This document shows, piece by piece, positions 23,403 through 50,012 of a DNA stretch of 64,000 nt (the stretch's first letter is position 1; each line of letters opens with the position of its first letter). The position numbers and the translations under genes were made by a program. The notes below the pieces were generated by a model. The model saw only the letters and a program-made list of their open reading frames with translations, had not been told where the DNA came from and did not search any database. Source of the DNA: Symbiodinium natans (lineage: Eukaryota; Sar; Dinophyceae; Suessiales; Symbiodiniaceae); NCBI GenBank assembly GCA_905221605.1, contig CAJNDS010002636.1, forward strand, positions 99,501-163,500, given 5' to 3'.

Positions 23403-23722
23403 GCACAACCCTACCTATAAGCCCTACAAGCCCTATAAGCCCTATAAACCCAATAAACCCTATAAACCCTGTAAACCCTAGAAACCCTAGAAACCTTAGA
23501 AACCCTAGAAACCCTAGAAACCCTCTAAACCCTTTTAACCCTATAAACCTATAAACCCTATAAACCCTATAAATCCCACCACCCGCGAGCCTAGAAGACC
23601 AAGCAAGCGGAACACCTCGGTGGCGGCTCATGGATTCAGGCTTCGGGAGGCTTAGGGCGTACAGGGCACAAAGGGTTTATGGGGTTTATAGGGTTTATAG
23701 GGTTTATAGGGTTTATAGGATA
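23403..23722. repeat. 9-bp telomere-like tracts CCCTATAAA / CCCTAGAAA / TTTATAGGG
   Basis: The first part (23403-23575) is C-rich on the plus strand. The second part (23655-23722), after about 80 bp of unique DNA, is the G-rich complement. The retroelement inserted at the end of the second part. Confidence 0.85.
23710..23722. repeat. Left target-site duplication candidate, 13 bp
   Basis: GGTTTATAGGATA, identical to 39953-39965. It ends a run of TTTATAGGG units but deviates from the run in the same way as the right copy. Confidence 0.6.
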
Positions 23723-24112
23723 GGCGTTTCGGCTTAGATTGTGTCTTTCCGTAGCCTCTGCTCGTAGCAGCGCCTGCGGATCTGCAACAGCCAGACCCCA
23801 GGCAGGCCTTAGTCCTGCCGCCATCTATCGGGCTTGGGTCCGGTACTTCTGATCTGCGCGGCTGGCCCGCGCCGATCCTCAGGGTCGCGGGGCCCTGAAT
23901 TGCTGGCATTGGTCCTGGATCATTTGCTGGCTGGTGGTTTGGGCACTGGATCCGCCACCGGGATTTTTCATCCCCTCCCTAGTGGGTTACGCTGCCTTTT
24001 TGGGCCGTCACCCTGATATCTCTGCGCCTCCCTGGTTATTCGCTGCCTTTCCTGGGCCGACTGATCTGGGACGCGCAGCACATGAGAGGACAGCGAGTCC
24101 TCATCAAGCTCT
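23723..24112 (+). other. Retroelement 5' leader
   Basis: There is no clear coding before 24.1 kb, although two short frames are open. It contains TCCGTAGCC (23748-23756), equal to the first nine bases of the dinoflagellate spliced leader, but the rest of the leader is absent and this may be chance. Confidence 0.4.
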
Positions 24113-27100: not shown

Positions 27101-30100
27101 GGTATCATACATGCACTCACGCCGGCCTTTGCTCCTGATAGCGAGACCTTCCGCTTCCTGCGTGGCGAATTCCCGGAGCTCGCTTCCCTGACTATGCGCC
27201 GCATGCGGTATGCGCTTACTGACCTGCCGCCGACGCAGTTCCTAGCCTTCCGCCGTGAGGAACTCGGAAGGCATTCCTTGGTAGTTGACCTCCGTGCATT
27301 GGATCTTGGACTGCTTACTCTCACAGTACCCAGATACATATCGTGCAGCCAAATCCTCGATGTCACTGCGAGAGACCATGCTCGCATCCTGGACACGGCA
27401 GCCATGCATGAACATGTGATGTCTGGAGATTATATCTGTTTGCTCCATGATCAAGCCGTCGGGCCTGATGTCATGCTTGACGTGGCTGGCTTTGATCTGC
27501 TACGAGCCTATCGACACACACTAGTCGAGGTGCCCATTGGGAGTGACTCTGAAAATGCTGCCTCGCGGGGAGCCTCCTTGGCAAAAGCCCTACTCATTGC
27601 AGCAGCGCCGCTACGGGGACCTGTCGGCTCTATGTGCCTACTGCTTGTGGTAGGTGCCAGCCAAGCACTTGCAGGACGCGCTGCTAGTGCCCCACCACAT
27701 CGCAGTGGACGGTTACAGCGGGTGCCAGCTCCCCCCTGCAACCTGCCCAACAAGGCCTCGCAGGCCACCCATGCGGCAATTCAGCGAGAGCTGCTGGCCT
27801 CTGGCAAGCTTCTCACGCCCGTTATCAGTCCTAGCCCCCTCGGCAATGACGACCCACGTGAAGTCACATTCAAGCTGTGGCACCCTGGGAGGGTCCTTAC
27901 CCGGTGCTACCCGGCGCAATGGCCGTGGTTTGATGTGCACGCTGACCTCCTTGAGACTGTATCCGCCCTAGGCAGGTATGTCGTCCTGCCTGCTGCCGCG
28001 ACACCGGACCATAGAGCTGTGCATATGGTCGCTATCTCCAGTGCAGACACGCATAGCACCATTCTGGTGGCACGGGCAGGATCGTGGAAATGCCTCGATG
28101 TTGACTGGCGCAATCCTGCAGCTGATATTCATGCATGGGTGGAAAGCTTGGATGGTACCCATTCCTATCGCATTGACTGTGCGCACCGGGGACGCATGCG
28201 GCATGGCGATGTCTGCGTGGTTGTTGATACCTTTCAATCAGCTTCACCCACACTTCTGGATATTAGCACTCTCTCTCTGACGATGCCAGTAGGGTGCTCT
28301 TGGACGCGCACTATAGGCAGGCAGGTCTTTCCCTTGCTGCAAGCCGGCCAACCACATCTTTGGCTGCCACGCGTGCAAGGCGTGACAGCACGTGACACTG
28401 CCATGGATATGCTGCACACTCTTCGGTCGCCAAACCCCGAAACTACCCATCTGCTCGATGTGCCGCCATATCTTTTAGGCCTTCCGGGTCCTATTCTTCT
28501 CGCGGCCCCTAGAGGTGGGATGTGCACCCTTGTCTGGTTGCATGACTGTCACGAATGTGTTCCACACGGTGTGGCATTCGCCGTGGAAGGGGTGTTCCCA
28601 AGCCGCGCTGACCTTCTCTACGCGCTGCGTGAGCTACCGGGAGCCGCGGCTGCAATATGGCTCCGGGCAACGGAAATGTTTCTCCTTTGGGGGCCCTCCG
28701 AATCCTTGCACTCTGCCGATAATGAGGCTGTTGTAGCTGAGATTGTGACAGCTAGCGTTGACATGCGACTGCTGCTGTCGCATAGCCGCACAGACTCCCT
28801 CTCTTCTGCGCCACACATGGGAGCGCAGGGGATGGCATCCATGCCGGGTCCCCAGGAAGCCAGGAGTAGTCAGATTTCTTCCCTGGATTCCTCGCTCGCT
28901 GACCCATGCATCCCGACCCTGGGTATCCCCGACGAAGGCACCTTGCATGTTGTGTACTGTGGTGCGATCCAGACCAGCTGTGTGGTACCCTGTCCTAGCC
29001 GGAGGATGCCATGGGCTCTCATCATTGGAGATGAAATTAGGACGGCCTGTACTGATCAAACCTCCTGGGCTGAGGTAGCCACCGTAGCAGATCTCTCAGT
29101 CTTGGACTTGCAAGGGGTGGCCGTTGTCCTTGATGGGTTCCGCTGGATGTGGCCAGAACCCATTACTCATCTTGGGCACGCCTGCGGCACGCTTCTCCGG
29201 CGCACTCCGAACAAGGATTCCCGCTGTTATGTGGAGAGTGAGCACACTCTTCCGCCCTCACCGCTGCAAGCAAGGAGCTCATGTGGTGGCATGAGGCTTG
29301 CTAAGTGGGCTCAACTAGTTGCTTGGACTGCTAGTGCACCTTGCACCGGCCGTTGGCTACCTATTGCACTTCTTGTCAACGCTGCTATGGCCATGGTAGT
29401 GCCAGTCGACCCTACTGCTGCACGTCCGCCTCTCATGTGTGTCCCTCCTCCTGGGTTCCTCCTTTTCGTTGATGTGCTTAACTGCTTCCTCCAGCACCCA
29501 CCGGTAGAGGGTACCCTCTTGCGGATATGGCGCCCCTGTAGGGGTCCGGCCGTTTACCAGTTCCGACAACAAGTTGACCTTGACAATCTGAGTACCTGGT
29601 TGCGTGAGCAGGGATGCCGGCCTACCCGTGATGTGGTCCACCTCGCGCATGACTCTGGCCCAGATGCCATTGACTTGCTTTGCACCCCGCCGGCCTCTGG
29701 AGCTTGGTGGATATTGCGAGATGGCAGTCACCGTGAGCTGCTCAGACCCGTCTGTCAGCTGCCGGACATCTCGGAACAATTGGTCACGATTGATGAAGGA
29801 GGTCAGGCACATCGTCTGATTTGCGGAGGTCAGGCCGACCTCCGGCCAGAGCTTCTCCCGGGTAAGCGGGCAGCGATTGGACGCAGCGTCCCTAACTGGT
29901 ATGGCGCCTTAGCTGGCACTGGACTGATGATGTTTTCGACGTCTGCTTGCTGGCGCTTGGCGCCGGTCATGCTGGCCACTATCATAGTCGTGCAGCCTGT
30001 GGGCGGGCAGACTATTCCAGCCAGTCATCCCCGCAGAGTCTGGACCTTCGGACTGCCTGAGCCTGTGGACCTTCCGACGACAGCACGGACGGTCACAGAT

Positions 30101-30979
30101 GCTCGTCTAGTTCTTGTTCGGGCCCATCTCCCTAGGCAGCTTGATAATGATGGGAAGCTTCTGGAAGTCTCCCCCCCCCTGATACAAGGGGTTCAGCACT
30201 GGCTATATGTGCCTAGGACAAGAGTGGGGACATACACCTACTTGCTCATGCAGTGGCATAGGCAGGCGGCAGTCTTCGAGAGTCGGTCTAACCCATTGGA
30301 CTGGGATGCCCTGTTCCAGTGGGCCACATCTGTCTTCACCCTAGAACAGCCGCTTGCACAAAAGTTTGTCCTGGTCCTCGACAGACAGATTTTTCGTTTC
30401 GGCACCATCGTGAGTGGTCTCCGACACGGACAGCTTCTGGCAATTGGGGAGCATACACCATCGCGCAGCCCGATGCGCTACCTCAATCCCTGGGGTGAAG
30501 AAGAAGAACTGCCTGAGATTGTCCGCAGTGACTGGGGAGACACTCTCCTCACTGGGCCCGGTGGCCAGATTTCTCTGCGCCCGGAAGGACCGGCTTTCCT
30601 GACGGCCACGGCGGGACGAAGTGAGGCTACATCCCCGGCAGTCGCACACAGCTCTTGTCAAACTCCCCTCTCGCTGCCCCCTAATAACACCTCTCTTCTC
30701 GCTTGGGAGGCGGCTACCCACCAGCTTGGGGAAGTTCTACGACTGCTGCGACAGCGGACCCAGGGCTACGCATTCCACCCTCAATGTAGCGCAGAGAGCG
30801 GAGTGCCTGTCAGCACGACAACCCTGGGCATCTCTCCACAAGGCCCGGTCACCCTGCCAGACGGGGCTGAACATGGAAGCAGCGCTCGGTCGGAACCTCA
30901 GGCCTCTGCAGGGGATCGTACCCCGCTACTTCTCATTGGTGCACCGGCGTGGCCTTTGGGTGATGCTTCTTCTCGGTAA
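24113..30979 (+). CDS. Retroelement ORF1-like polyprotein, modular, with hydrophobic segments
   Basis: This is an open frame of 2288 codons. The ATG at 24299 (residue 63) is an alternative start that opens on a basic, Gly/Lys-rich region. Residues about 120-190 form a Lys/Glu-rich coiled coil, as in many LINE ORF1 proteins. Between about 24.9 and 25.8 kb the natural-looking protein lies in another frame (25104-25787, acidic with EEDWQQW), so two frame changes are likely inside this ORF. Hydrophobic, signal-peptide-like segments lie near 25.77, 25.94, 26.06-26.19, 26.25, 27.58-27.68, 29.35 and 29.93-30.0 kb. Between them are beta-rich modules with FPW/WPW, W-x-P (LWHPGR, RIWRP) and R-H-G-D motifs (28196, 30419). 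I recognise no enzyme here. The natural reading passes into the next frame near 30.85-30.9 kb. Confidence 0.75.
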   Translation: MHWLVCFLLLGQTSRITTVPRRARSPPWHRRLRRKRQVARNRLKTGRGRPDDRLRLLRHHGSMPPQSRKETGSKGQPKGAGKTKAAAPLLSAVRFVPPASVVSALQARAGRAQNAVLAAEEQHAGKRTLAQEANWLATQVAKTTKRLEADLRAKQDLGEAALQWHSQLAEHLSTNYAEVERLAGQLDADVKEALKILTPLVSTTTSDATQVLLHKGAQNAGPIWPPQVTGLLEMAANALRAVAALDPLGHNRAPAVGGGVPSVPTQTQGIGGHHARRQPPGLDGGIFPGAMLTSGSPTMVTESHRAQPPPVSGNRFKHARSRATGWNAGGCAMAAGKHRQNPHPSLTPNLVLDGTCPFCTGGAGWIRWFQRANVLSWGRGDGSPPFSGRGRLAAMATELDHGMEYVGGATYGHVWSCCHCGSKQSGVAGGASRATAHGHRRGPQPMSEHAAELAATPLGMRTRDCDCGRGPDALLLVPKKLSSRCSGLSPSCAPPRPHSSCCGSGRHVIHATMHRRMVVPTAGSREAPRLSGTPGCQHPSPSASRPAANVRLSLLACIVCILAGTTSTARGLGPPSGRGTGTFVSVRTLWFIGHCLGCGGCIAVQGTEFLLAALSAGVLLGCVWTTLADPPHFKPLGQMAYDLPSEHQVLGLLLAAMGCGLALAPCLLMVVVAWLPIGVFLLGLLSPALPPQHTRREPWCKNKRTRETAVKQMKGCFFLCLLFSPVGASGLPKIHNPEHVRQEEGVVSMPDNNEADDSFMMQVAGQAHFNRIPAWSLSRVPRIRIRRELHPLEEVGARPLAMQELCTATYTRKLAVFHGGVVEGPEPILFRVDSRLFRPALDEAIVQALGISADAVDVLMLASPFDSVTREQYVLRPRAFPWYAQAVPVLVRGELDSFHVLQAARDEQCHDLVAAAALLTQMQSIPEAEQCQCVEGTFVADSQPLLQPRCDAIVWTPIALKQRLSEASAHSPYADMHSNQGPPSQTLLSCVIITANGIIHALTPAFAPDSETFRFLRGEFPELASLTMRRMRYALTDLPPTQFLAFRREELGRHSLVVDLRALDLGLLTLTVPRYISCSQILDVTARDHARILDTAAMHEHVMSGDYICLLHDQAVGPDVMLDVAGFDLLRAYRHTLVEVPIGSDSENAASRGASLAKALLIAAAPLRGPVGSMCLLLVVGASQALAGRAASAPPHRSGRLQRVPAPPCNLPNKASQATHAAIQRELLASGKLLTPVISPSPLGNDDPREVTFKLWHPGRVLTRCYPAQWPWFDVHADLLETVSALGRYVVLPAAATPDHRAVHMVAISSADTHSTILVARAGSWKCLDVDWRNPAADIHAWVESLDGTHSYRIDCAHRGRMRHGDVCVVVDTFQSASPTLLDISTLSLTMPVGCSWTRTIGRQVFPLLQAGQPHLWLPRVQGVTARDTAMDMLHTLRSPNPETTHLLDVPPYLLGLPGPILLAAPRGGMCTLVWLHDCHECVPHGVAFAVEGVFPSRADLLYALRELPGAAAAIWLRATEMFLLWGPSESLHSADNEAVVAEIVTASVDMRLLLSHSRTDSLSSAPHMGAQGMASMPGPQEARSSQISSLDSSLADPCIPTLGIPDEGTLHVVYCGAIQTSCVVPCPSRRMPWALIIGDEIRTACTDQTSWAEVATVADLSVLDLQGVAVVLDGFRWMWPEPITHLGHACGTLLRRTPNKDSRCYVESEHTLPPSPLQARSSCGGMRLAKWAQLVAWTASAPCTGRWLPIALLVNAAMAMVVPVDPTAARPPLMCVPPPGFLLFVDVLNCFLQHPPVEGTLLRIWRPCRGPAVYQFRQQVDLDNLSTWLREQGCRPTRDVVHLAHDSGPDAIDLLCTPPASGAWWILRDGSHRELLRPVCQLPDISEQLVTIDEGGQAHRLICGGQADLRPELLPGKRAAIGRSVPNWYGALAGTGLMMFSTSACWRLAPVMLATIIVVQPVGGQTIPASHPRRVWTFGLPEPVDLPTTARTVTDARLVLVRAHLPRQLDNDGKLLEVSPPLIQGVQHWLYVPRTRVGTYTYLLMQWHRQAAVFESRSNPLDWDALFQWATSVFTLEQPLAQKFVLVLDRQIFRFGTIVSGLRHGQLLAIGEHTPSRSPMRYLNPWGEEEELPEIVRSDWGDTLLTGPGGQISLRPEGPAFLTATAGRSEATSPAVAHSSCQTPLSLPPNNTSLLAWEAATHQLGEVLRLLRQRTQGYAFHPQCSAESGVPVSTTTLGISPQGPVTLPDGAEHGSSARSEPQASAGDRTPLLLIGAPAWPLGDASSR

Positions 30980-33900
30980 CCTCCTGATCTGTGGGGTAGA
31001 AGCGCCGCCGGCACCTGTCGGAGTAGAACAGGCTCTCGTTAGTGCTACAGGAGCATCGATTCCAGGGGGGGGGCATACCGAACACGCCCATTGCAATGTC
31101 ACGCTACCGCTGAACGGCAATACCCTGTCATGGTCCGTGAGGGATGCCTCCCCAGAGCAGCACGGAGCCCTGCAGGCTCAGCTCAGTACTGTGTGGCAGG
31201 CTCGAGCTGGAGGCAGACGCGTCGAGGAATCACCCTCCTGGCCGAGGACTGCAGGGAAGTTCCTCATTCACTCCCCGGCTGTGCCAAGGCAGCCGCTAAC
31301 AGGTCGGTTTCTGCTCACCGAAGATTGTCTCAATGAGCTATATGACATCTCCGAAATTTGGAGAAGACAAGCCCAGGTCGATGCTGTCATACCGCTGTCA
31401 CCACAGCCCACCCGAAGCGCCATCCACCTGACTACCTGTGAGCCGGAGTCCGACCGAGCGTCTGTTGTGCTATGGTGGGATGGGATGTTGTGGCCAAGGA
31501 AGCTCCCCAGACAATGCCCCGCTGAATGGCTACGCAACTACTGCATCCTTGGTACGGTGGGCCTCATCCCGCCCCCTGTGGGCGTTCAGGCTCAACCCAC
31601 TGTGCCTTTCAGAGACGGAGACTGCGTCCCCTTTTGGGTCTGTCCACAGGCTCAGCTTGAAGACATTGAGATCTCCCTAGCTGGCTGTCCCCGGAGCCTA
31701 AGGCTTTCTTGGGTTCTCCAGCTACTTCTAGCTTGCCCACGAGGCTACCTTTGTGCCTTGTTCATTCTTGCGGTGGGGCTACCTGGCCCTGCCGGGGCGA
31801 TGATGACCAGTCAAAACCTAGCTCCAGAACACGTCCCCCACATGTCTTGTTGGCGACACGGCAATACCAGGGACCTGGATAAAGCCCGCGGGGGCTTTCC
31901 GAATCACAGAGCACTCTCCATGGAAATTTTAAGGACGCAGGCGCCAAGCGCTGCCACACATCTGGTATGGCGACGCAACAGCCTGGCCATGTGCCTACGC
32001 ATGTGTTCATGCACCCCGCCTGCTGTGGCGGAGATGGCCCTTCTGGCCGGGCTGCCTTCTTCTTGCCATAGCTCTGTTGTGTTGGATGGGGCGCCACCTG
32101 ACATTGAAGCTGTCCATTGGAAATTAGTCCCAGAAACTGATGCCTCACCTTCACGGCACTTGAGCCGGTGGCTGTTCAGCATTGCCTTGGGGGTCTCATC
32201 GGGTTGGAGGGTCTCCCTCCTTTCAAGTGTGATCGTCATGCACTTAACCCCTACACTAGTCAGGCCCATGACGCTTCGCCAGGCCGCGGAACCTGTTCGG
32301 GTAGGGGCATTTCCGTGGCATGTGGCCATCCCTGCGCGGACGGTTAGCAGTCTCTCTGAGACGGGGCCCATCCTGGTGCACCTGCTCAGCCCCTTTCGGG
32401 GCATGGGGGACACGCACGAAATTAGCCGAAGCTGCGACTGGTCATGGCTAGTGCGCCTCTTATATGCTGAGGAACCTAGATGGGGGCACCAACTAGTGCC
32501 AGTTTGGCCCAACACTGTCGCCAACACCTTGACCCTCGTCCCGGTTCCACCGGACAACTCCTTGGTTTGTGTGGTTGTGGTGGCGTCAACATGGAGGCTG
32601 AGCCTGTGCATCCCGCAAGTTGCTCGGCTGGAGTGGGTGCAGGAAGCTATAAGTCACCGAGCACCGCAGGCCTTTGGGCAGCTCTTTCCACCCCCGCCTC
32701 TCGAGGCGCTGCTTGAGCCAATGCCATCCTCTGAACTAGAGAGCGAGGTGCAGGCTACACTCCACATGCGTAGCGGTGACGTTTTCTACGCCTCTCTCCT
32801 GGGACAAGCAGGCTCCGCCCGAAGAGGGGGGGAGGTCACGGTGGAATCCCTCGCCTCCCTCAGACATGACACTCTTTGGCAACGGTTCTTAGTCATACCC
32901 TTCACCTTTGAATGCACCATATGGCAGCCCGGAAACAGTCCGAGTGTCATCGAGGTCCCAGCTGGGTCGAGATGGTTGCCGCACTCCCAGACCTTCGACA
33001 GCTTCCCGGAGTTGGGGGCTAGAGGCCAATGGGTCATCGCTCCTTGGGCATGGGGTCAAGGCATACATCTGTGCCTGCGCTGCCGTGACGCCTTCCATGC
33101 ACACATACTGATACACTGCGCTAGCAACAATCTGTGCGTCCGGACCCCCACCTGTGCGGATCGTGCGTACGTACAACACATCTTCACTGGGGCGGGAGGC
33201 CGTGGCGCTTGGACCGTCGCTGGCAGCTCCCCCCACCCCGCAACACAACTTACTGACCCGGTTCATCTTAGGGATGGAGATGTCCTGCGAGAGGGTTGTG
33301 CCGTAAGGGCACTGCCCTCGGCCCGCTCCAGTGGACGTCGCAGCCTAACCCTAAGCATAGGGCTGTACCTTCTAATCTCAGGAGGGTGGGGACATCGGCC
33401 AGTTGGGCAGGGCCAGGAAATAGTGCTTCTCTTGCCCCTTCTATGGGTTTCCCCAGCCATGGAACTTGAATGTAGCTCTAGCTCCAGTGAGTCAGGACAG
33501 CCTCCCGCCAGGCGGTCAAGGTCGCCCTCCAGGAGCGGTGCCTACAAAACACTGAAGCCACGGGTCGTTGAGGTCGGCTTGGTCCATCACCCAACCTCGC
33601 CTAGATGGCGTCCTGCCGAACACACGGTCAACTTGGGCGGCTTTCCATGGATCCAAACACTGTGCCCCGTTATGGGGGCGGCGGCTCCTTTGCGGCCACA
33701 TCCGCATATGCCACAGCAGGACATCTACCAACTGGTGCGAGCCACCATGCAGGACTGGCCGGAACCTCTTGTCCCTGTCTGGCCAGCACTGAGCATGGGA
33801 GCTCTACATCTCGTACCCTGCCCCCCGCCCCCCCTTCTGTGCGTTGCGGTCGTCAAAGGCGGAGAGGTGCAAGCGCGATTACTGTTGCGGGATATGCCAT

Positions 33901-34301
33901 GCCGACTAGTTCCTGACGCCCTCGGGATCGGTACGGACTATGCGGGGCCCCTCACAGCCGCGCCTTCCTTTCTTTCTTCTTCCAACACCCGTCTCCGACA
34001 TGGAGACCTCATTTGTGCGAGGCCAATGGCTAACTATCGGGTCCCTCCAGCCATGCCCATACATCTAACGCCATCCCAGGCCCGCCACCACGCTCTCTGG
34101 CAGCTCCCATTTGTCATTTCGCAAACTGGGCGAGTCACCATGTGGCGCCCAGGAGCACCGGCGCGCACCGTGGACACACCTGTTGGGTTCACGTGGAAGC
34201 CTGCTGCCTGTTGCTTCGCGGGCGACTGGGTAGGACAAGGGGAGCAATGGGCACCTGTGCCATGGATCCCCGCACCTGGGCTTCATCTGTGTTTTGCGTA
34301 G
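30621..34301 (+). CDS. Retroelement polyprotein continuation, duplicated modules
   Basis: This is an open frame of 1226 codons in frame +1 relative to the previous ORF. Natural sequence begins near 30.88 kb with RGLWVMLLLGNLLICGVEA. Further hydrophobic segments are near 31.72-31.80, 32.17-32.25 and 33.35-33.46 kb. Two tandem copies of one bipartite module are visible. Copy 1 (about 32.29-33.30 kb) has GAFPWHV, LVPVWP, IWQPG and GIHLC, then LRDGDV. Copy 2 (about 33.62-34.46 kb) has GGFPWIQ, LVPVWP, MWRPG and GLHLC. L/M/F-R-x-G-D motifs fall at 31608, 32766, 33267 and 33993. A Ser/Arg-rich linker lies at about 33.47-33.54 kb. The stop at 34299-34301 falls inside copy 2, and the homologous reading continues in the next frame, so the stop results from a frame change. 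The function is unknown. Confidence 0.75.
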   Translation: MRLHPRQSHTALVKLPSRCPLITPLFSLGRRLPTSLGKFYDCCDSGPRATHSTLNVAQRAECLSARQPWASLHKARSPCQTGLNMEAALGRNLRPLQGIVPRYFSLVHRRGLWVMLLLGNLLICGVEAPPAPVGVEQALVSATGASIPGGGHTEHAHCNVTLPLNGNTLSWSVRDASPEQHGALQAQLSTVWQARAGGRRVEESPSWPRTAGKFLIHSPAVPRQPLTGRFLLTEDCLNELYDISEIWRRQAQVDAVIPLSPQPTRSAIHLTTCEPESDRASVVLWWDGMLWPRKLPRQCPAEWLRNYCILGTVGLIPPPVGVQAQPTVPFRDGDCVPFWVCPQAQLEDIEISLAGCPRSLRLSWVLQLLLACPRGYLCALFILAVGLPGPAGAMMTSQNLAPEHVPHMSCWRHGNTRDLDKARGGFPNHRALSMEILRTQAPSAATHLVWRRNSLAMCLRMCSCTPPAVAEMALLAGLPSSCHSSVVLDGAPPDIEAVHWKLVPETDASPSRHLSRWLFSIALGVSSGWRVSLLSSVIVMHLTPTLVRPMTLRQAAEPVRVGAFPWHVAIPARTVSSLSETGPILVHLLSPFRGMGDTHEISRSCDWSWLVRLLYAEEPRWGHQLVPVWPNTVANTLTLVPVPPDNSLVCVVVVASTWRLSLCIPQVARLEWVQEAISHRAPQAFGQLFPPPPLEALLEPMPSSELESEVQATLHMRSGDVFYASLLGQAGSARRGGEVTVESLASLRHDTLWQRFLVIPFTFECTIWQPGNSPSVIEVPAGSRWLPHSQTFDSFPELGARGQWVIAPWAWGQGIHLCLRCRDAFHAHILIHCASNNLCVRTPTCADRAYVQHIFTGAGGRGAWTVAGSSPHPATQLTDPVHLRDGDVLREGCAVRALPSARSSGRRSLTLSIGLYLLISGGWGHRPVGQGQEIVLLLPLLWVSPAMELECSSSSSESGQPPARRSRSPSRSGAYKTLKPRVVEVGLVHHPTSPRWRPAEHTVNLGGFPWIQTLCPVMGAAAPLRPHPHMPQQDIYQLVRATMQDWPEPLVPVWPALSMGALHLVPCPPPPLLCVAVVKGGEVQARLLLRDMPCRLVPDALGIGTDYAGPLTAAPSFLSSSNTRLRHGDLICARPMANYRVPPAMPIHLTPSQARHHALWQLPFVISQTGRVTMWRPGAPARTVDTPVGFTWKPAACCFAGDWVGQGEQWAPVPWIPAPGLHLCFA

Positions 34302-35298
34302 CCCGAGCCATCTCTATGCTCATGTTATCTTCTGGGGTGCTAGCCCAATCTGCCAGAGGGTTTCAGTCCGGGCCATGGACACCCTCGACAACTCCCATCT
34401 GGCGCGCGGGGTCGCAGGGTTGGCTCCGTCTGAAATCTCACTCCGGGATGGCGATATCATCGAGCCCTCCGTTCCGTACGCGGGGCAGTCGACTACGGAG
34501 TTGCAAGCCCGACCTTTCTGGCTGACTCTGCTTCTTGGTAGGTGGGTTTTATGCCGTGCTACTGGTGCGCCTTCCGGGTGGATCGGCATTGCTGCTGTCC
34601 TCTACGTCCTCACGCAATGCCAAGCTGGGGATGTGCCCCATGGCAAGCTTCAGATCACTGTCCCTTCCGAAGCACAGTGGAGAGGGCAAGGCTACAGGGC
34701 TAACCTCTCGGCTGCGGGCCTTGTAGGACCGCTAAGCCGATGCCAAAGTTCCACCCCATACGCCTATTGGGATGCCAGGCCGATTTTCACGCAATGCTGG
34801 AGCTGTTACCTCTGCCCTCGCGGAGCACCGGAACTGGTTTGGCGCCAGAGCGAAGATCGGATCTGGGAGGCGGACCTTACACCCGTCGGGCAACTACAGG
34901 AGTTCCTTTATGAATACTGGATGGCTGAGGACCTGCCACTGGACCTCCCTAGTGCGGTCCGCCCTCACCTGCGGGCTGCGTGGGATGCATACCCGAAATG
35001 GACCCATGGTGTCCCGGATCAGCTCCTTCTGGCCACGGATGGGTCGGGGGCCGGTTCTGGGGCCTGGGCTTTCACCGCGTGGGCCGCTTTCCGTGGTTCC
35101 TGGTTCAGAGTCGGCTGGGAACATGGCAAGTTGATGGGTGGATGCCAACCGGGCTGCTTGGGGAGGTGTGCCCTCGCGGGTTGTGGCTGCAGTCGACAAC
35201 CAGGCCGCCCTCATGGTGGCTGCAGGCCATGCAACTGCCTCCTCCGTATGGGCAAAAGATGCCAGAGTGGCCTGGCAGGCCCTTCAATCACGGGTTAG
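34294..35298 (+). CDS. Retroelement: module end and N-terminal half of RNase H
   Basis: The frame continues copy 2 of the upstream module: LYAHVIFWGAS aligns with FHAHILIHCAS of copy 1, and LRDGDI is at 34441. It then has a hydrophobic segment (about 34.51-34.62 kb) and a linker with a CWSC..C motif near 34.80 kb. An RNase H start follows at about 35.03 kb, LLLATDGSGAGSGAW, with the first catalytic Asp at 35038-35040. After about 35.13 kb the protein becomes Cys/Gly-rich and unnatural, and the RNase H continues in the frame of the next entry. The first codon shown is TTG, not ATG. This is a segment of one larger polyprotein, not a separate gene. Confidence 0.75.
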   Translation: MRSPSHLYAHVIFWGASPICQRVSVRAMDTLDNSHLARGVAGLAPSEISLRDGDIIEPSVPYAGQSTTELQARPFWLTLLLGRWVLCRATGAPSGWIGIAAVLYVLTQCQAGDVPHGKLQITVPSEAQWRGQGYRANLSAAGLVGPLSRCQSSTPYAYWDARPIFTQCWSCYLCPRGAPELVWRQSEDRIWEADLTPVGQLQEFLYEYWMAEDLPLDLPSAVRPHLRAAWDAYPKWTHGVPDQLLLATDGSGAGSGAWAFTAWAAFRGSWFRVGWEHGKLMGGCQPGCLGRCALAGCGCSRQPGRPHGGCRPCNCLLRMGKRCQSGLAGPSITG

Positions 35299-36163
35299 CA
35301 CCGACCTCGTACATGTGCCAGGTCACGCGGGGTATATCGTCAATGAGCTGGCTGATAGCTTGGCTGGCCTAGCCGCGGCTGGTGGACCTAGTGGACCGGA
35401 TAGGGGCAGAGAGCCCCCCCAGTTTTCGGATCACTGGGTGAAACACGCCCAGCACCTGTGGCTTGTGCCATATGGGACACTACTTACCAACACTTGCCTC
35501 GTTCTTCGTGTCGTGGTTGCGCCTGACCCGCCGCCCAACTCGGGCATCCCAGACACACCAGGCGAGCCGGATGTAAGTGAGACGGGGTCCCCCTCGCCGG
35601 TTACAATCTTCTCCCGCGTCATTCAGGCGAATGTCCAAACCTTGAAGGATGTCGTCCCGCATTTCTTCAATAAAGCCGGCACAGGACAACGACGGGCCTA
35701 CTTGGTCAAGCAGTTAGACCATCTGAAGGTCGACGTCGCCACTCTCCAAGAATGCCGCTCTCGTGCAGGGAGGTGGATGTCCGGCAACTTCCCATCCAAT
35801 CAATGCGGTTACCTGTGCCTATCTGCATTCTGTCGGCACATGCGCCACATGCAGATCGCCCCCGTTCCGAAATTGTGGCCTTCTGGGGTGACTTGCGGAC
35901 ACGCTTGGCTAGATTGCCCCCTACGGCAGCCATTTGGCTGGGTCTTGATGCAAATGCGGACTTTGCAGTTGCTGATACGAATGGCCACAACATTGGCACC
36001 TTGGTTTCCGTTCATGAGCCTAGAGTTGGGGATGACAAACTTGCTCACATTTGTCGAGAAGCGTGCCTGGTCGCAGTGTCTACCTTCTCACATATACATC
36101 AAGGGCACACCTGGACGTGGCAGCACTCCAGCGGGCTGCGCAAACGCCTGGATCACATCCTGA
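35138..36163 (+). CDS. Retroelement: C-terminal RNase H and start of APE endonuclease
   Basis: The RNase H continues here with AAVDNQAAL (Asp codon 35195-35197) and VHVPGHAGYIVNELADSLAG (His near 35324, Asp near 35351), matching the Dxx...HxxxxxNExADxLA end of the fold. The stretch between the first Asp and this part is short and crosses a frame change, and the second catalytic Glu is not evident, so the domain is probably damaged. From about 35.61 kb an exonuclease-endonuclease-phosphatase fold begins with QANVQTL and LQECRSR, where the metal-binding Glu is at 35749-35751. After about 35.8 kb the reading becomes unnatural and continues in the next frame. Confidence 0.75.
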   Translation: MDANRAAWGGVPSRVVAAVDNQAALMVAAGHATASSVWAKDARVAWQALQSRVSTDLVHVPGHAGYIVNELADSLAGLAAAGGPSGPDRGREPPQFSDHWVKHAQHLWLVPYGTLLTNTCLVLRVVVAPDPPPNSGIPDTPGEPDVSETGSPSPVTIFSRVIQANVQTLKDVVPHFFNKAGTGQRRAYLVKQLDHLKVDVATLQECRSRAGRWMSGNFPSNQCGYLCLSAFCRHMRHMQIAPVPKLWPSGVTCGHAWLDCPLRQPFGWVLMQMRTLQLLIRMATTLAPWFPFMSLELGMTNLLTFVEKRAWSQCLPSHIYIKGTPGRGSTPAGCANAWITS

Positions 36164-36972
36164 TTTCCGAAGAAGCTTGGAACATCTCCATGACGCGACC
36201 GTTTCCGGACTTCGATGTGCTCCTAGGCCCACGTGACCACATGCCACTTATGGCGGAGGGGACCTTGACCCTCGCGGCGCCTACAGTCGAGCGGGCGCCT
36301 CGGCTGTGCACACCCACAGAATGCGCTCGAATGGCTCCAGCCCTGTGGGGCTCGGTTGGATCATGGACGGAGACACTATCCCTGCCCCCTCAAGTTCAAG
36401 TCGAGACATTTGTTGCGAGATATCAGGCTCTCTGCCGACAATTGCCTCGCAGACCCCGAGCGCATCCCAAGCAACCCTATCTCAGTGAGGAGGCTTGGCG
36501 ACTCCTGTGCTCCCTCAAGCAGCTGAGACAGGACAAGGCCCAGGCCAAGGCCCGAGCTCGGCTAGCATGGCTGAGACAATGTTGGCAGGCGTGGAAGGGT
36601 AGACGCCGACAGCTTCGACGCCTCGAAACATGGCGTCAAGTGGCGCTCCTCTCGAGACGCGAGGCGGGCATGTGCCGGCGCCTGCACCGTCTGGGGCAAC
36701 GCGATAAAACAGTTCACTTGCACTCCCTCTTGTCTGGCGCTATTTCGGCATGGCACGTCCATGGCCGGGTGGATCATGCCCTGATGCATCTCAAATGGGC
36801 TTCCAGGCGTGCAGCGGAACGCAGGAAGGTGCACTCCGCTGGTGGCTACAACATCCAAGCCGAGTTACGCGAACAGTTCAGGGAGCAGGAGCAGGGACGA
36901 GTGGTGACCCCTCAGCAGCTTGATGACTTCCACTTGGCGTGGCAGGAAAAAGCCAGGATGCCCCTGCCCTGA
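35752..36972 (+). CDS. Retroelement: C-terminal APE endonuclease and linker to RT
   Basis: The endonuclease continues with SAHAPHA (35833-35853), GLDANADF (35941-), a TW pair, RLDHILI (36145-) and RDHMPL (36232-), the expected motif series of LINE APE-type endonucleases. Only about 25 residues separate the LQE and HAP motifs, fewer than usual, so a stretch is missing besides the frame change. From about 36.4 to 36.9 kb follows a basic, Arg/Gln-rich helical linker. The frame ends at 36972, where the reading moves into the RT frame. It codes for part of one polyprotein. Confidence 0.78.
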   Translation: MPLSCREVDVRQLPIQSMRLPVPICILSAHAPHADRPRSEIVAFWGDLRTRLARLPPTAAIWLGLDANADFAVADTNGHNIGTLVSVHEPRVGDDKLAHICREACLVAVSTFSHIHQGHTWTWQHSSGLRKRLDHILISEEAWNISMTRPFPDFDVLLGPRDHMPLMAEGTLTLAAPTVERAPRLCTPTECARMAPALWGSVGSWTETLSLPPQVQVETFVARYQALCRQLPRRPRAHPKQPYLSEEAWRLLCSLKQLRQDKAQAKARARLAWLRQCWQAWKGRRRQLRRLETWRQVALLSRREAGMCRRLHRLGQRDKTVHLHSLLSGAISAWHVHGRVDHALMHLKWASRRAAERRKVHSAGGYNIQAELREQFREQEQGRVVTPQQLDDFHLAWQEKARMPLP

Positions 36973-39811
36973 GGCTTTGCCGTCGCTACTGGAAGTGGAG
37001 CATCTCTGCCGACGACAGCGCCCTACTAAAGCTCCAGGGCCGGATGGCATTAGAAACGGGGTATGGTCTCACCAACCCGCCCTTGCCAGCCGCTGGCTTT
37101 GGCAACTGCACGCGAAGATTACTTTGCGAGGGAAGGAGCCATCTGGCTTCAAGCACGCTCTTGCGTGCGCCCTTTACAAGAAAGGGCCGGCAGCGATCCC
37201 CAGCAATTATCGCTCCATTGTTCTCCTTAACGGCGTGGCGAAAATTTGGCATGGCCACATCCGCAACACAATAGGCCGGAAGGTGGTCAACGCCTATCAG
37301 CCGCTCCAGCTCGGAGGACGCCCTGGCATGCATGTGGGATATGCTCTCACTGCCTACCGAGCTGCAGCAGGCCTTACCCTGGCAGCCCAGCACTCCTTGA
37401 TTGCTCTTTTCGTGGACGTGCAGGCCGCTTTCTATGAGGTTGACCGGGAGCTCCTTTTCGGGGATTCGCGACAACTGCAGCCGCGTGTTGACCAAATCCT
37501 TCCCTGGGCCCAACATCTCTTGGACGGTGGCGCCCTTGGGCAGTTGGGGTTGGATGCCGCTGACCGGGCGCTGCTGCAAGACTGTGTCAGCGGCTCCAGT
37601 TGGCTGCTGCGTGGAGATAGATTGCCGGTCTTGGCCTCACGGGGCAGCCGTCCGGGCGATGGATTGGCTGACGTCCTCTTCGGAGCGATCATGACCTGCA
37701 TCATTGCCTGTCTCAGCAATGAGTTGGGGAAACATGGCGTTGCTCACCACAACCTCGCGGTTGCCTGTGCTGATGAGGTAGAGGAGCCATGCCCCATTGC
37801 ATGGGCAGATGACCTCGTCTTGCTCGCTGATGTGCCAGAGGCGGGGCTCCTGCCCTCGACCTTGCGATGCATGGGCAGCATTACGCTTGAGGTCTTTCAA
37901 CAGTTCCGACTCCGGGTCAATGTGTCGGCTGGGAAGACGGAGTTCCTCATAGATCCTCGTGGCGCTGGCGCCACGGCCGTGCGAGGAGAGCTGCTGCAAG
38001 GGGATGCCATCGTCCAATTGGATGCTAAAGCCATAAGGATTGCTCCCGAATACAAATATCTTGGTGTACCGCAGTTGCCCCGAGACAATGGCAGGCGAGA
38101 TATTGAGCAAGCCATTGGCCGTGGCAGGGGAGCTGAAGTCGCTGCTGGGCCGTTGCTCACCAGGTCGCGCCTTCCATGGAGAATCAGGGAAGGATGGATT
38201 GCAGGCCGAATCCTACCGGCCACTTACGCTTGCCTGGCCACTTCCCTTGCGCCAGGTCGCAACAGCCTCAAACCGATGGAAAGTTTCCTCCATCGTATTA
38301 GGAGGAAAGTGTGGCAAACCTGGCAGGAGGGGCACCACGCATGCCAGAAAGCCCTGGAGGTGCTTGTGCCTGTGACTTCGCCAACAGAGGCCCTTCTTGT
38401 GGCGAGATGCAGACTGGTCGTGCAGCTATGTGTGTCTGCTCCTGAACGAGTGTGGGACATGTTCGAGGCCGCCCTGATGCGGGATGTGCCCTGGGCGCGC
38501 GACCTGCTGTACGCGACCAGGCAGGTCTGGCGCAGCACATACATCCCTGGTGAGCTCATCACGGGCGGCTTCCGCCAAGCAGTTCGCACACATTCTCGCG
38601 CTCTTCTCAAGGCCTGCAAACGGGTCAGTCAGCATGGCACCCTACTGCGTGCCCTAAAGGCACACTGGGCCACGAACAAGGAGAGCCTTGCTCACTCGCA
38701 ACCGCTGGTGGAGGCCCGGGCACGACCGCCTCCGGCGTGGAAATGCCATGTTTGTCCGGAAACTCGGCCCACGAAGCATGCCTTGTCTGTGCATTTGCAC
38801 CGCACGCATGGAGTGGTGTCGGAGAGCATGTCCTTCATCGTCGACACCGTCTGCCGCTGGTGCTTGCGCGACTGTCACTCCACTGCACGTCTGAGGTACC
38901 ACATCGAACACACCCCACGGTGCAGATGTGGGCTTCGTCACGTGGTCGGGCCAATCTATGTGGCGGGCACAGCCACGAAGCGAGTGGGGGCGGCGGGCCA
39001 CCTCAGAGTCCCACCACTACAGACTGTGGGTCCTCTTCTGCCGACCCCCCTTCATCGTCAGGCGGCTGATGAAGACCGCTATGCCACGGAGGCTGAACTC
39101 CAGGCCGAGTTACAGCGCTGGGTTGAGCTTGAGGCTGCTGCCGGAGACACTGTACCTCAGGTTCCTGCGCCCGCGGTGGCCGAACATTTCTCCCAATCAG
39201 CCCCGTGTCCTGCAGTGGCCCGGGCCCCAGTAGAGGCTACTGCTGCTGGCTGGAAGGAATGGCGCTCAATTACGGATGATATGGCGGCTCCGTCACCCTT
39301 GTGGTCCGGGTTGCAGGGACATCGACTCTGGAGGCTGTCCTTTTCGCTGGCCTCCTTCCTGCCCCTCTGGGCCATGTGTGCCCACATGGAGTGGTGGTCA
39401 AGGCCGTTCGTGGAAGCCGCCCGCACACTACGTATGGAGGCCCAGGGGACGCCGCCTACTTCTTCTGAAGGGCACATCCGTCAAGGTGCCTCACGGGATT
39501 CCTGTACGGAGTTCCGGCAGCGTCTGCTGAGGGCTACCAACACTATTTTCCTTTTGGTTGCCTCCTTGCGCGACACTGGAGCCTTGTGGTGGTGTGGACA
39601 TCTCTCTCAGGCGATACGCACTGTCTTTGCCGCAGTCGACAAGCGAGTGGTGCTGCACGACGTCCGCTGGGAAGGTCGCAGCTTTGTTCTGGCCTCTCTG
39701 AGGCTTGACGCCGTGGCTGCCTTCCATTCCGAGCTGAGACGTGGCCTTTTGGCTTCCCATGCCAAAACTGTACAGATGGCCGCCTTGCACCAGTCGCTGC
39801 CGTCTCCCTGA
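36920..39811 (+). CDS. Retroelement reverse transcriptase with zinc fingers
   Basis: This is the reverse transcriptase of a LINE-like element. Motifs in order are KAPGPDG (37028-37048), NYRSIVLLNGVAKIW, LGGRPG, motif A FVDVQAAF with Asp at residue 166, motif B GSRPGDGLADVLF, motif C AWADDLVLLA with DD at residues 297-298, motif D VSAGKTEFL and motif E YKYLG. Catalytic residues are intact. After the thumb region lie two C2H2-like fingers (CHVC..H..H near 38.74-38.81 kb and CRWC..H..H near 38.85-38.91 kb) and a CRC knuckle. The last 290 residues contain a hydrophobic stretch near 39.34 kb and resemble nothing I know. The first natural residues follow the frame change near 36.96 kb, and the ATG shown is not a true start. 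Confidence 0.92.
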   Translation: MMTSTWRGRKKPGCPCPEALPSLLEVEHLCRRQRPTKAPGPDGIRNGVWSHQPALASRWLWQLHAKITLRGKEPSGFKHALACALYKKGPAAIPSNYRSIVLLNGVAKIWHGHIRNTIGRKVVNAYQPLQLGGRPGMHVGYALTAYRAAAGLTLAAQHSLIALFVDVQAAFYEVDRELLFGDSRQLQPRVDQILPWAQHLLDGGALGQLGLDAADRALLQDCVSGSSWLLRGDRLPVLASRGSRPGDGLADVLFGAIMTCIIACLSNELGKHGVAHHNLAVACADEVEEPCPIAWADDLVLLADVPEAGLLPSTLRCMGSITLEVFQQFRLRVNVSAGKTEFLIDPRGAGATAVRGELLQGDAIVQLDAKAIRIAPEYKYLGVPQLPRDNGRRDIEQAIGRGRGAEVAAGPLLTRSRLPWRIREGWIAGRILPATYACLATSLAPGRNSLKPMESFLHRIRRKVWQTWQEGHHACQKALEVLVPVTSPTEALLVARCRLVVQLCVSAPERVWDMFEAALMRDVPWARDLLYATRQVWRSTYIPGELITGGFRQAVRTHSRALLKACKRVSQHGTLLRALKAHWATNKESLAHSQPLVEARARPPPAWKCHVCPETRPTKHALSVHLHRTHGVVSESMSFIVDTVCRWCLRDCHSTARLRYHIEHTPRCRCGLRHVVGPIYVAGTATKRVGAAGHLRVPPLQTVGPLLPTPLHRQAADEDRYATEAELQAELQRWVELEAAAGDTVPQVPAPAVAEHFSQSAPCPAVARAPVEATAAGWKEWRSITDDMAAPSPLWSGLQGHRLWRLSFSLASFLPLWAMCAHMEWWSRPFVEAARTLRMEAQGTPPTSSEGHIRQGASRDSCTEFRQRLLRATNTIFLLVASLRDTGALWWCGHLSQAIRTVFAAVDKRVVLHDVRWEGRSFVLASLRLDAVAAFHSELRRGLLASHAKTVQMAALHQSLPSP

Positions 39812-39952
39812 GGGAGCGAGCTCTCGACTTTGTGCTTGTTGCGTTTTCGTAGGTTCTGTTTCTTAGTATTCGGGCTGCGACGTCATAGCGATGTCGTTTT
39901 TGGCCAGCGCGGGTACCTGCTCACCGGACCCTGATGCCTCGGAAGGAAGGAA
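39812..39952 (+). other. Retroelement 3' UTR with hairpin and GGAA tail
   Basis: This 140-bp 3' UTR contains a hairpin at 39878-39896: stem CGACGTC / GATGTCG (one G-T pair) with loop ATAGC, followed by TTTT. It ends in GGAAGGAAGGAA. LINE reverse transcriptases often recognise a 3' stem-loop and end in a short repeat; that role is inferred here. Confidence 0.5.
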
Positions 39953-39965
39953 GGTTTATAGGATA
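39953..39965. repeat. Right target-site duplication candidate, 13 bp
   Basis: GGTTTATAGGATA directly follows the GGAAGGAAGGAA tail of the retroelement and is identical to 23710-23722. Degenerate TTTAGGG-like sequence resumes after it. Confidence 0.6.
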
Positions 39966-46447: not shown

Positions 46448-46957
46448 CTGGTTGCCGTGTGGAAGGATGGCCGGTTGACATGCGAGTCCGCGGAGAAGGC
46501 CACGAAAGCCAAGAAGGCGAAGAAGCCTGCGATGAAGGCGATGAAGGCGACGAGTAGGGTTTATGAGCTGTTTACTTGTAAGTCTTGAGGATAGTTTATA
46601 TAGATGAATCTTATCTTTGAGAAATTGTAACTCTTTTTGGAGGTCCTTTAGGAATCATGAGATGAACAGCCACATACTTGCAAGTAAGTCGGGCTTTTCC
46701 TGTCTTTGATGGCTACTACTTCTCCAGCTGCGCTTCGCAGCACCGTATACAGAACACCAGCTGCATTTTGCAGCAATTGTACCTCTGCTTTGGCAGTTCC
46801 GTGAACCTCGACATAGTCCTCTACACGAGCTATGCCGTACCTGACCTACCAGGCGATGAAGGCGATGAAGGCGATGAAGGCAATCAAGCCAATGAAGGCA
46901 ATGAAGGCAATGAAGGCCATGAAGTGATGAAGGCCAGAAAGCTACGAAGGCCATGAA
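46448..46957 (+). CDS. KAMK-repeat basic protein coding, broken or split
   Basis: From about 46451 a plus-strand frame reads VAVWKDGRL, then EKATKAKKAKKPAMKAMKAT, and reaches the canonical donor T|GTAAGTC at 46578. A second stretch at 46853-46930 reads KAMKAMKAMKAIKPMKAMKA and stops at TGA. Lys-Ala-Met-Lys repeats are a known dinoflagellate low-complexity type in basic, often nuclear proteins. The underlying DNA is a 9-bp GATGAAGGC minisatellite, and in another frame the same DNA reads Gly-Asp-Glu. That alternative frame runs from 46678 through a natural-looking PVFDGYYFSSC segment, so which frame is used is open. Confidence 0.4.
46574..46698. repeat. 125-bp direct repeat, copy 1
   Basis: Nearly identical to 47012-47136 (one difference seen). 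It starts ACTTGTAAGTC and ends AAGTAAGTCGGGCTTTT, so it carries two GTAAGT donor-like sites. Confidence 0.8.
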
Positions 46958-47011: not shown

Positions 47012-47136
47012 ACTTGTAAGTCTTGAGGATAGTTTATATAGATGAGTCTTATCTTTGAGAAATTGTAACTCTTTTTGGAGGTCCTTTAGGAATCATGAGA
47101 TGAACAGCCACATACTTGCAAGTAAGTCGGGCTTTT
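47012..47136. repeat. 125-bp direct repeat, copy 2
   Basis: Copy of 46574-46698, offset by 438 bp. The two copies bracket the second KAMK-coding stretch. Confidence 0.8.
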
Positions 47137-48225: not shown

Positions 48226-50012
48226 AGGGGGCTCCAGCGCCCCCAGGTCCTCCAGCGACTCCTCCGGCTGGGGGCGCCGCCCCCCCGCCACGAGGACGAA
48301 GTCGGGGAAGATGCCCAGGGAGTCCGCCAGCCGCCCCTTGAAGTCCCCAAGCGTCCTCGGGTTTTAGGGTTTTAAGGGGTTTAGGGGTTTAGGGGTTTAG
48401 GGGTTAAGGTTTAGGGTTTTGGGCCTCTTGGAGTCCCCAAGCGTCCTCGGGAGGGGGATTCTTGGAGGGTTCGGTGTAGGGTTTTAGGGTTTTAGGGGGG
48501 TTTAGGGTTTAAGGTTTAGGGTTAAGGGGGGGGGGGGGGGGGGGGGGAGGAGGATGCTTGGAGGGTTCGGTTTATAGGGGCTTTTTGGGGTTTTAGGGTT
48601 TTTAGGGTTTTAGGGGCTTTAGGGGGTTTAGGGTTCAGGGTTTATTGGTTGGGGCTCTGGCACTTTGCACTTTTGGGGTCCCCCCCCCCCCCCCCCCCCT
48701 AAAAGCCCTACAAGGGCCTAAAAGCGCTTGTTAAGTGCGGCCGGGCAGTCTCGCCAGCGCGGGGCTGGGCTTTGGTCATGCGCCCGCTGAGCGAGACGCA
48801 CTGCGGCAGGCCGGGGATCTGGGGCTCCGCTTCAGGCTCCTATGCTGTCCTTAGAACCCTTTTAAATTTTTTTTTTTTAGTTAAGATTCTCTTGGGTTTT
48901 ATAGAAACAAAAATAAAAACAATTCCCAAGGGGGATAGAGGCTCTGGACCCTCATCGGCAAAGATGCTGTGCCTGTTCAGCATTCCCAGAACCTCCTCGA
49001 GCTTCTGCACGGGGCAGCGGCCTGCATTGAAGAGCCCTAAACCCTAAACCCTAAACCCTAAACCCTAAACCCTAAACCCTAGACCCTAGACCCTAAACCC
49101 TAAACCCTAGACCCTAAACCCTAAACCCTAAACCCTAAAGGGGCAGCGGCCTGCATTGAAGAGCTGCCCAACAAGCCGGGCAACTCCCTTGGCGCTCTCT
49201 CGGGCCCTCTGGGTCTCCTGCAGGACGTCCGCATCCCCGGCGGATCGGAAGAAGTGGCGGCTCATGTCGCGCGTGATGGAGTCGATCACGCAGGAGCTCA
49301 GGCTCCTTTTGCTTCTCCAATAACCAAGAAAAAAAAACGGCTAAACTCCATTATTCCCTCTGAAATTAAAAACGGCTAAACTCTATAATTCCCTCCAAAA
49401 TTAAGGACACCCAAAGAGCTTAAAAACCCGCCGCTGGCTAAGTGAGGCTCACTTCGGGCTCGGAGGGCTCGGCATCCGCAGGGTCCGCAGGGTCCGCAGG
49501 GTCCGCAGGGTTCAGTTGGTCCAAGGCAAGGATGATGTCAGCAAGAGGCATCGCCCCGGTGGGCCGCGAGTTTCCGGACCACACCGAGACCTGGGTTTTG
49601 GCCCTTTCAAAGAGGAATATTTACAAAGAAAGGGTCCCTTACAAACCCAAATCAGGAAGTCATGAAGTTCTGTCCCCAACATCCAGCCTAGAAACGAGTA
49701 TGTCGTTGGCAATTTGCATGAAGACCTCCTTGTCGGCACTCGCCAAGTTCATGGCCATCTCACCCTCGGACTTCCTAGCCTCGTCTACCAACCGGCCAAG
49801 GTTCGTCGGCGAAACCTTCAGGGGTCCCTTGATGAAGCTTAACTATCCCTAAATAGCCCTTAATTCAGGGATAATTAAGGCTTAGTTAGGCTTAACTATC
49901 CCTAAATAGCCCTTAATTGTGGGGGGAACCTCAGGGGGGTAGTATAGAGGGGTAGTAGGGGAGCCCATGGAACCTTGTTCAGGAACAGCTTCACTGCATT
50001 GGATCCAGTCAT
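48226..50012 (-). CDS. Split gene ending in a ubiquitin-like segment
   Basis: Minus-strand exons join in frame: 50012-49974 (Met start, MTGSNAVKLFLNK), 49815-49696, 49590-49451, 49305-49151, 49021-48945, 48839-about 48735, a small exon near 48460-48446 and 48355-about 48226. Recognisable stretches are NLGRLVDEARKSEGEM, an Asp-Pro-Ala tandem repeat near 49500, VIDSITRDMSRHFFRSAGD, and LPQCVSLSGRMTKAQPRAGE. The last exon reads TLGDFKGRLADSLGI followed by VLVAGGRRPQPEESL, which matches the spacing of a ubiquitin-like beta-grasp (helix, then VxxGxRxxxxxxSLxD). I do not recognise the rest. The introns at 49150-49022 (129 bp, GC-AG) and 48445-48356 (90 bp, GA-AG) are telomeric tracts between long direct repeats. 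The introns at 49450-49306 and 48944-48840 start with GAGCCT and are followed by GAGCCT. The small exon near 48460 and the true 3' end are unclear. Confidence 0.55.
48337..48451 (-). repeat. 20-25-bp direct repeats around a 65-bp telomere-like tract (putative intron 48445-48356)
   Basis: Copies at 48342-48361 and 48432-48451 are identical over 20 bp (AGTCCCCAAGCGTCCTCGGG). The insert is TTTAGGGG-type. Removing 90 bp with a GA donor and AG acceptor restores the ubiquitin-like frame. Confidence 0.8.
48451..48571 (-). repeat. 25-bp imperfect direct repeats around telomere-like and poly-G sequence
   Basis: 48451-48475 and 48547-48571 match at 23 of 25 positions and share CTTGGAGGGTTCGGT. The insert between them holds TTTAGGG-like units and a G run. 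Confidence 0.7.
49011..49163 (-). repeat. 24-bp direct repeats around a 105-bp telomeric tract (putative intron 49150-49022)
   Basis: Identical 24-mers at 49011-49034 and 49140-49163 (start GGGGCAGCGGCC) enclose CCCTAAA/CCCTAGA units. The gene's reading frame continues across if 129 bp are removed with a GC donor and AG acceptor. Confidence 0.85.

Follow-up and report, generated by a model that had tools for sequence, protein, structure and literature searches.

How introns originate has long been asked. Introners, which resemble transposons, are among the leading sources described, and the wider literature also ties introns flanked by direct repeats to break repair. In the sections cited here of the account of introners by Gozashti et al. 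(2022; PMC9860276), the duplication flanking the insertion contributes splice sites and mRNA length usually stays unchanged, and in some cases both splice sites are co-opted from the insertion site; the same sections describe Symbiodinium introners that take their splice sites from 4-bp target duplications (for introners see also Roy et al., 2023, as summarised in the part of PMC11453091 drawn on here). The insertion described below, in an exon of a minus-strand gene, would resemble introners in supplying splice sites from its flanking duplication and leaving mRNA length unchanged, as would a second insertion at a parallel locus (L025). They differ in that telomere repeat makes up the inserted body, the duplication measures about 19–24 bp and no element is present. 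Introners, according to the same sections, form families of similar elements with 3–9 bp duplications and/or inverted ends in some; our two insertions have duplications of 24 and 19–21 bp, and they do not form a dispersed family with defined ends, the models of both introner families that we found at these loci missing the telomeric body.

Interstitial telomeric sequences of mammals (Nergadze et al., 2007; PMC2246262) are, like ours, short tracts at double-strand break sites, and some carry a target duplication (6/130 rodent and 4/25 primate loci in the sections cited), a minority that resembles the minority of repeat-flanked tracts found here. They are not described in those sections as introns, whereas our two tracts interrupt exons and are apparently spliced out. 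For introns that carry direct repeats at their flanks, an origin in break repair upon insertion has been put forward (PMC11782384), with repeats near the splice sites as here, but the part of that paper cited does not mention a telomeric intron body, and a reference on telomerase is among the paper's two mentions of telomere-related terms. Introner elements of Amoebophrya (Farhat et al., 2021; PMC7789003) share direct repeats at exon/intron boundaries and unusual splice dinucleotides with our cases, but in the sections cited the repeats are 3–5 nt (direct) and 8–20 nt (inverted), and the mention of telomeres concerns scaffold ends. Among the sections of openly licensed PMC papers covered by our searches, we found no account of telomeric-repeat introns, in keeping with the first-pass annotation of this DNA, which knew of no such class. 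What seems new is the combination of a telomeric body, a long duplication and the derivation of both splice sites from that duplication.

Our reading of the locus, which lies in a window of 64 kb (the whole stretch of DNA analysed), is that an exon received a telomeric tract, with duplication of the ends of a staggered break, and that the tract is probably now spliced out as a new intron; we put the probability of this at roughly 0.7. The tract is 105 bp long and consists of 15 CCCTAAA units arranged head-to-tail, with 102 of 105 bases matching and three of the units reading CCCTAGA. The 24-mer that flanks it, GGGGCAGCGGCCTGCATTGAAGAG, was found on the plus strand of the window at positions 49011 and 49140 only, and the 25th base of the two copies matches too. 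Stop codons occur in all three minus-strand frames of the tract. Deletion of one repeat copy together with the tract (129 bp) leaves one frame open on the minus strand, joining the upstream exon end ...TTCAATGCAG to GCCGCTGCCCC, and the four exon pieces of Table 1 then form one frame of 159 codons, free of stops, across two introners and the tract. Two proposals made from the letters alone were thereby borne out, namely that a CCCTAAA-type tract lies between identical 24-mers (24/24) within minus-strand coding sequence, and that reading through it meets a stop while the 129-bp removal restores a continuous protein. Because the tract and the repeats are nearly unmutated, the insertion would be young.

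Table 1. Features of the gene carrying the telomeric tract, with neighbouring tracts (window positions unless stated otherwise).
Feature	Position	Strand	Description and basis
Exon E1 (VSVWSGNSRPTGAMPLADII...EPEV)	49451..49590	-	5' boundary tentative; open frame
Introner, family I copy	49306..49450	-	145 nt, GA-AG, 6-bp repeat GAGCCT; alignment with L025 and dynein introners
Exon E2a	49151..49305	-	155 nt
24-bp direct repeat, gene's 5' side	49140..49163	.	exact match
Telomeric tract (CCCTAAA)15	49035..49139	+	102/105; reads TTTAGGG on the sense (minus) strand
24-bp direct repeat, gene's 3' side	49011..49034	.	exact match
Inferred telomeric intron	49022..49150	-	129 nt, AATGCAG|GCCGC...AATGCAG|GCCGC (GC-AG); one open frame left, donor rule
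Inferred telomeric intron, numbering of contig C2324	148522-148650		
Exon E2b	48945..49021	-	77 nt
Introner, family II copy	48840..48944	-	105 nt, GA-AG, 6-bp repeat GAGCCT; alignment with L025 intron b1
Exon E3	48735..48839	-	3' end left unplaced
Third telomere-like tract	48449..48571	.	within 27-bp repeats (25/27); repeat without AGG[ACT]; sequence apparently non-coding
Second telomere-like tract (48362-48426), candidate intron	48337..48451	-	within 25-bp repeats (24/25); repeat holds AG|GACGC

The exon that bears the tract looks like a genuine one, because introners bound it on both sides; third-position GC in the coding frame of E2 was 0.81. The upstream introner (family I) has relatives in three introns of L025 and in the dynein gene L041, the family model used for alignment having taken in 130 bases of the window copy. 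The downstream introner (family II) has a relative in intron b1 of L025, and its model consists of these two sequences only. The gene itself matched no Pfam family above the cut-off and had no convincing match among solved structures (best E 0.29), and a comparison with 5.8 billion proteins gave one match at E ≤ 0.001, a 56-amino-acid piece of the same sequence. An initial suspicion of a MIF4G-like domain was abandoned for want of support. A DNA search of the same genome for an uninterrupted copy returned only the gene's two halves, and a protein search gave one weak further match, on C646 (40% identity, E 0.03, one TGA), where no convincing exon was seen and which was attributed to chance. 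The gene is apparently single-copy by these searches and, because of this, the empty site is unseen at the window locus.

At L025, on C1719 (within 456882–459993), a telomere tract lies within a flanking repeat of 21 bp (21/21), two bases of which form part of the tract at one end (making the repeat 19–21 bp), and the repeat copies are 129 bp apart, as in the window. Tract purity in the two cases is 97–98%. The insertion at L025 makes up intron c (1490–1618), a pure telomeric intron of 129 nt, whose site is uninterrupted in three paralogs, two on C1546 (93% identity over 59 amino acids; ORFs of 1076 and 1055 amino acids, the letters having been inspected for the first, L046) and one on C180 (L049). 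These uninterrupted paralogs provide before-and-after pairs within one genome and show a precise gain with duplication, as the first-pass annotation had supposed in proposing a telomeric insertion that duplicated its flank. The tract at L025 was thus inserted at a formerly continuous site, and its precise removal keeps a conserved protein intact by comparison with all three paralogs; for the window gene, with no paralog found, the corresponding observation is the open frame.

Alignment blocks between L025 and L046 mark seven introns in L025, comprising five introners, intron c and an intron d (1743–1895), whose telomere tract is less pure and whose repeat measures 5 bp. Intron d is absent from L046 and from C180, the latter reading through the sites of both c and d. 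One of the five introners (b2, family I, 1196–1409) carries a nested telomere tract with a 15-bp repeat of its own (14/15). The spliced frame of L025 runs for 730 codons without meeting a stop. Over 690 codons aligned with L046, dN was 0.127 and dS 0.567 (ratio 0.225); the ratio was 0.413 for the N-terminal 285 codons and 0.113 for the 405 codons that begin 30 columns ahead of junction c and run through to the end (dN 0.065, dS 0.578). By these ratios the constraint on L025 is not that of an old pseudogene and would be compatible with a very recent loss; they are no proof of present function, because the insert is much younger than the split of the paralogs and because of the N-terminal ratio.

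The usual eukaryotic donor has G at position +5. All 19 introns whose boundaries we fixed have a donor of the form G[A/C/T]NNC, with C at +5 (17/17 without the two pure telomeric introns), and the acceptor was AG|G throughout, sliding boundaries being set to AG|G by choice. This set comprises seven introns from L025, seven from dynein genes, one from a CCT gene, one from a gene for gamma-tubulin complex component 2 (GCP2) and three from the window (loci L018, L025, L040–L045, L048 and the window). Boundaries rest on the paralog for L025, on Pfam matches and motifs that we take to be conserved for dynein and CCT, on homologs of solved structure for GCP2, and on frame and repeats for the window. 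They were placed by hand and, where sliding was possible, a G start and an AG|G end were chosen; C at +5 was not. One telomere-rich GCP2 intron misfits the donor rule and was omitted from the 19. We did not see the C-at-+5 rule in the sections of the literature examined; GT, GC and GA donors are reported for dinoflagellate introns in the part of PMC11453091 cited, as the first-pass annotation held for GC and GA.

Both telomeric introns follow this rule, with donors GCCGC in the window and GAGTC in L025, each preceded by AG and placed inside the duplicated stretch. The GC donor after AG and the AG acceptor first suggested for the window therefore agree with the signals of the other fixed introns. 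One duplication would yield donor and acceptor alike, because AG|G[AC]NNC sits within the repeat. AGG[ACT]NNC occurs in 8.5% of 4630 overlapping coding 24-mers and 7.1% of 4636 coding 21-mers (drawn from two related coding sequences), giving a chance of 0.085 and 0.071 per telomeric intron and of about 6 in 1000 for both together; for coding 19- to 30-mers the background of AG|G[ACT]NNC is 6–11%. The repeat of the second tract in the window also holds the motif (AGGACGC), that of the third, in apparently non-coding sequence, does not. The second tract adjoins an open stretch reading PRTLGDFKGRLADSLGIFPDFVLVAGG, which had no match in Pfam.

These figures bear on the main and most dangerous rival, a recent gene-breaking insertion, in which telomeric repeats were added at an exon break and the tract stays unspliced in a dead gene copy. 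The identity of the repeats (24/24 and 21/21) and the purity of the tracts do point to young insertions, and the window gene has, among the sequences searched, neither a paralog nor a database homolog that could show selection. For such a break, however, the presence of splice-competent AG|G[AC]NNC in the repeats of both exon insertions (joint chance about 0.006) would be a coincidence, to which would be added that L025, its frame intact (ratio 0.11), tolerates a second intron with telomere repeats, the more decayed d. We regard this explanation as unlikely.

It is also conceivable that a tract entered a pre-existing intron, or that the whole insert moved as an introner, the intron in either case not being made by the tract. 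Nested tracts do exist, as in intron b2 of L025 and in a GCP2 intron of L018, but at the two exon sites only one repeat copy and telomere repeats stand between the exon halves (with two extra bases at L025), the three L025 paralogs are uninterrupted at the site, and repeats at the L025 and window introners measure 3–6 bp as against 21–24 bp here; we consider these scenarios very improbable. Still smaller credence goes to an artefact of assembly or library preparation, in which a telomeric read or a chimera was joined into an exon. Short repeat-rich inserts are prone to misassembly, but two independent loci have the same architecture and a third (L027, whether coding or not) joins them, as do decayed examples with substitutions between the repeat copies.

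Support for the insertion at a staggered break and for the GC–AG intron reading comes from the paired repeats, the surrounding exon, the open frame, agreement with the local donor rule and the second locus with its uninterrupted paralogs; splicing and the telomerase step are what we infer from this anatomy. That the genome is probably a dinoflagellate one we judge from its intron types, its introners and its telomere repeat. Pure telomeric inserts in clear exons number two, the window case being one. In the sequence of events that we envisage, an exon of the apparently single-copy gene would have been broken with ends offset by about 24 nt, and fill-in would have left about 24 nt duplicated on both sides (about 19–24 bp over the window and L025), the gap being filled by telomeric repeats, most likely added by telomerase. 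Of the duplicated AG|GCCGC, the left copy would serve as donor (G[A/C/T]NNC) and the right copy as acceptor (AG|G), and the spliceosome would excise one repeat copy plus the tract (129 nt), with the protein unchanged. Wherever AG|G[ACT]NNC chances to fall within the duplication, such an insert could be spliced at once.

Insertion may alternatively have taken place without telomerase, by capture of telomeric DNA or of a copy of an interspersed tract through end joining or template switching at the staggered break, which concerns the insertion step only and is compatible with the splicing claim. The genome offers more than 2 million overlapping telomeric 21-mers as a source for copying, and the variant unit CCCTAGA recurs within the window tract; yet non-telomeric bases beside the tract number two at most in the window and L025 cases, and pure short tracts are what telomerase adds. 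We hold capture to be a possibility to be entertained tentatively, and telomerase-aided repair of a staggered break to be the likeliest origin.

If our reading is true, an accident of DNA repair is turned into a silent intron: the intron body seems to come from telomeric DNA, which chromosome maintenance produces, and both splice sites from the break duplication. Intron density in an intron-rich lineage would then be connected with DNA repair and with a relaxed donor rule. The odds seem to us about even that telomere-born introns are a standing class here, steadily added by telomerase-aided repair of exon breaks with duplications of 15–30 bp. About 1/12 of coding duplications would then be splice-ready, as the spliceosome accepts G[A/C/T]NNC, and the tracts would decay into ordinary introns such as intron d of L025.

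Telomere tracts are ordinary in this genome, and tracts with long flanking repeats are not. The exact 21-mer (CCCTAAA)3 was counted 1,184,385 times in forward and 1,185,204 times in reverse orientation across the whole genome (759.4 Mb, 2543 contigs), where the reversed-pattern control gave counts of 33 and 41, and a tract scan found 96 telomeric tracts in the 64-kb window. Density is very uneven, four stretches of 10 kb each (L033, L034, L035 and L037) holding no exact (CCCTAAA)2 or (TTTAGGG)2 and the first 12 kb of the window being dense in telomere 7-mers. In 216 kb with 338 scorable tracts, 4 of 68 long pure tracts (at least 60 bp and 95% pure) had an adjacent repeat scoring at least 12, compared with 0 of 1360 shuffled flank pairings; the four repeats measure 25, 21, 18 and 15 bp (one mismatch in the shortest) and include that of the window tract, and the other 64 tracts had no adjacent repeat of that score. 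Short tracts gave little excess in the adjacent setting (score of at least 8 in 5/149; null 18/2980), and a laxer distance setting gave a score of at least 9 in 13/338 tracts compared with 8/1690 for the null. The loci L010–L028 in these counts were chosen for likeness to the window tract and are not a random sample; L001–L007 (overlapping copies of one place), L009, L038 and L039 (the window locus) and later loci were left out of the counts, as were tracts near sequence ends (342 compared with 338).

More decayed repeat-flanked tracts comprise the second and third tracts of the window and one in L022 (2230–2325; 17-bp repeat, 16/17). Three telomere-like tracts with flanking repeats of 24–27 bp fall inside 830 bp of the window (48337–49163), an apparent clustering. 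The distance between repeat copies is a multiple of three in six of seven cases: 129 bp (49011/49140), 90 bp (48337/48427) and 96 bp (48449/48545) in the window, 129 bp (1487/1616) and 108 bp (1273/1381) in L025, 132 bp (1474/1606) in L027 and 79 bp (2230/2309) in L022. When codon usage was scanned to pick out tracts flanked on either side by coding sequence, seven rows resulted, two of them the L025 tract, and the window tract was not flagged. Another row, a tract in L028, was looked at closely and revealed neither a repeat nor a join.

Conserved genes can carry such tracts within introns. The GCP2 protein encoded at L018, joined by hand before comparison, matched solved GCP2 with E about 1e-51, and the alignment is gapless across REFASK|VAHWEV and ELWCL|RYQCQ; at the latter this is partly imposed, because the join was chosen with what we take to be the human GCP2 spacing in mind. 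The intron at REFASK|VAHWEV (1672–1464) is GT–AG with a 7-bp repeat and has a telomere tract of about 105 bp inside; the one at ELWCL|RYQ contains two tracts and its ends read CA–AG or GC–CA. As joined, the gene shows introns with telomere tracts to be compatible with an intact conserved gene, which does not imply that the GCP2 introns arose from tracts. No telomere tract was present in six dynein stretches and one CCT stretch, and none of the eight introns fixed there (0/8) is telomeric; these stretches hold further introns beyond the eight.

Elsewhere in the window, about 16 kb with long open frames (23710–39965) is flanked on each side by the 13-bp sequence GGTTTATAGGATA, which stands in telomere-like repeats and was found at these two places only on the plus strand; the segment itself is nearly devoid of telomere 7-mers. 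One of its frames narrowly passes the cut-off with an endonuclease match (E 2e-5), two fall short of it with matches to RNase H and reverse transcriptase (E 0.004) and three others match nothing; the segment has the look of a non-LTR retrotransposon that entered telomere-like sequence. Two near-identical 72-bp copies (71/72), at 46574–46645 and 47012–47083, lie near KAM-type codon repeats and possibly represent another introner family.
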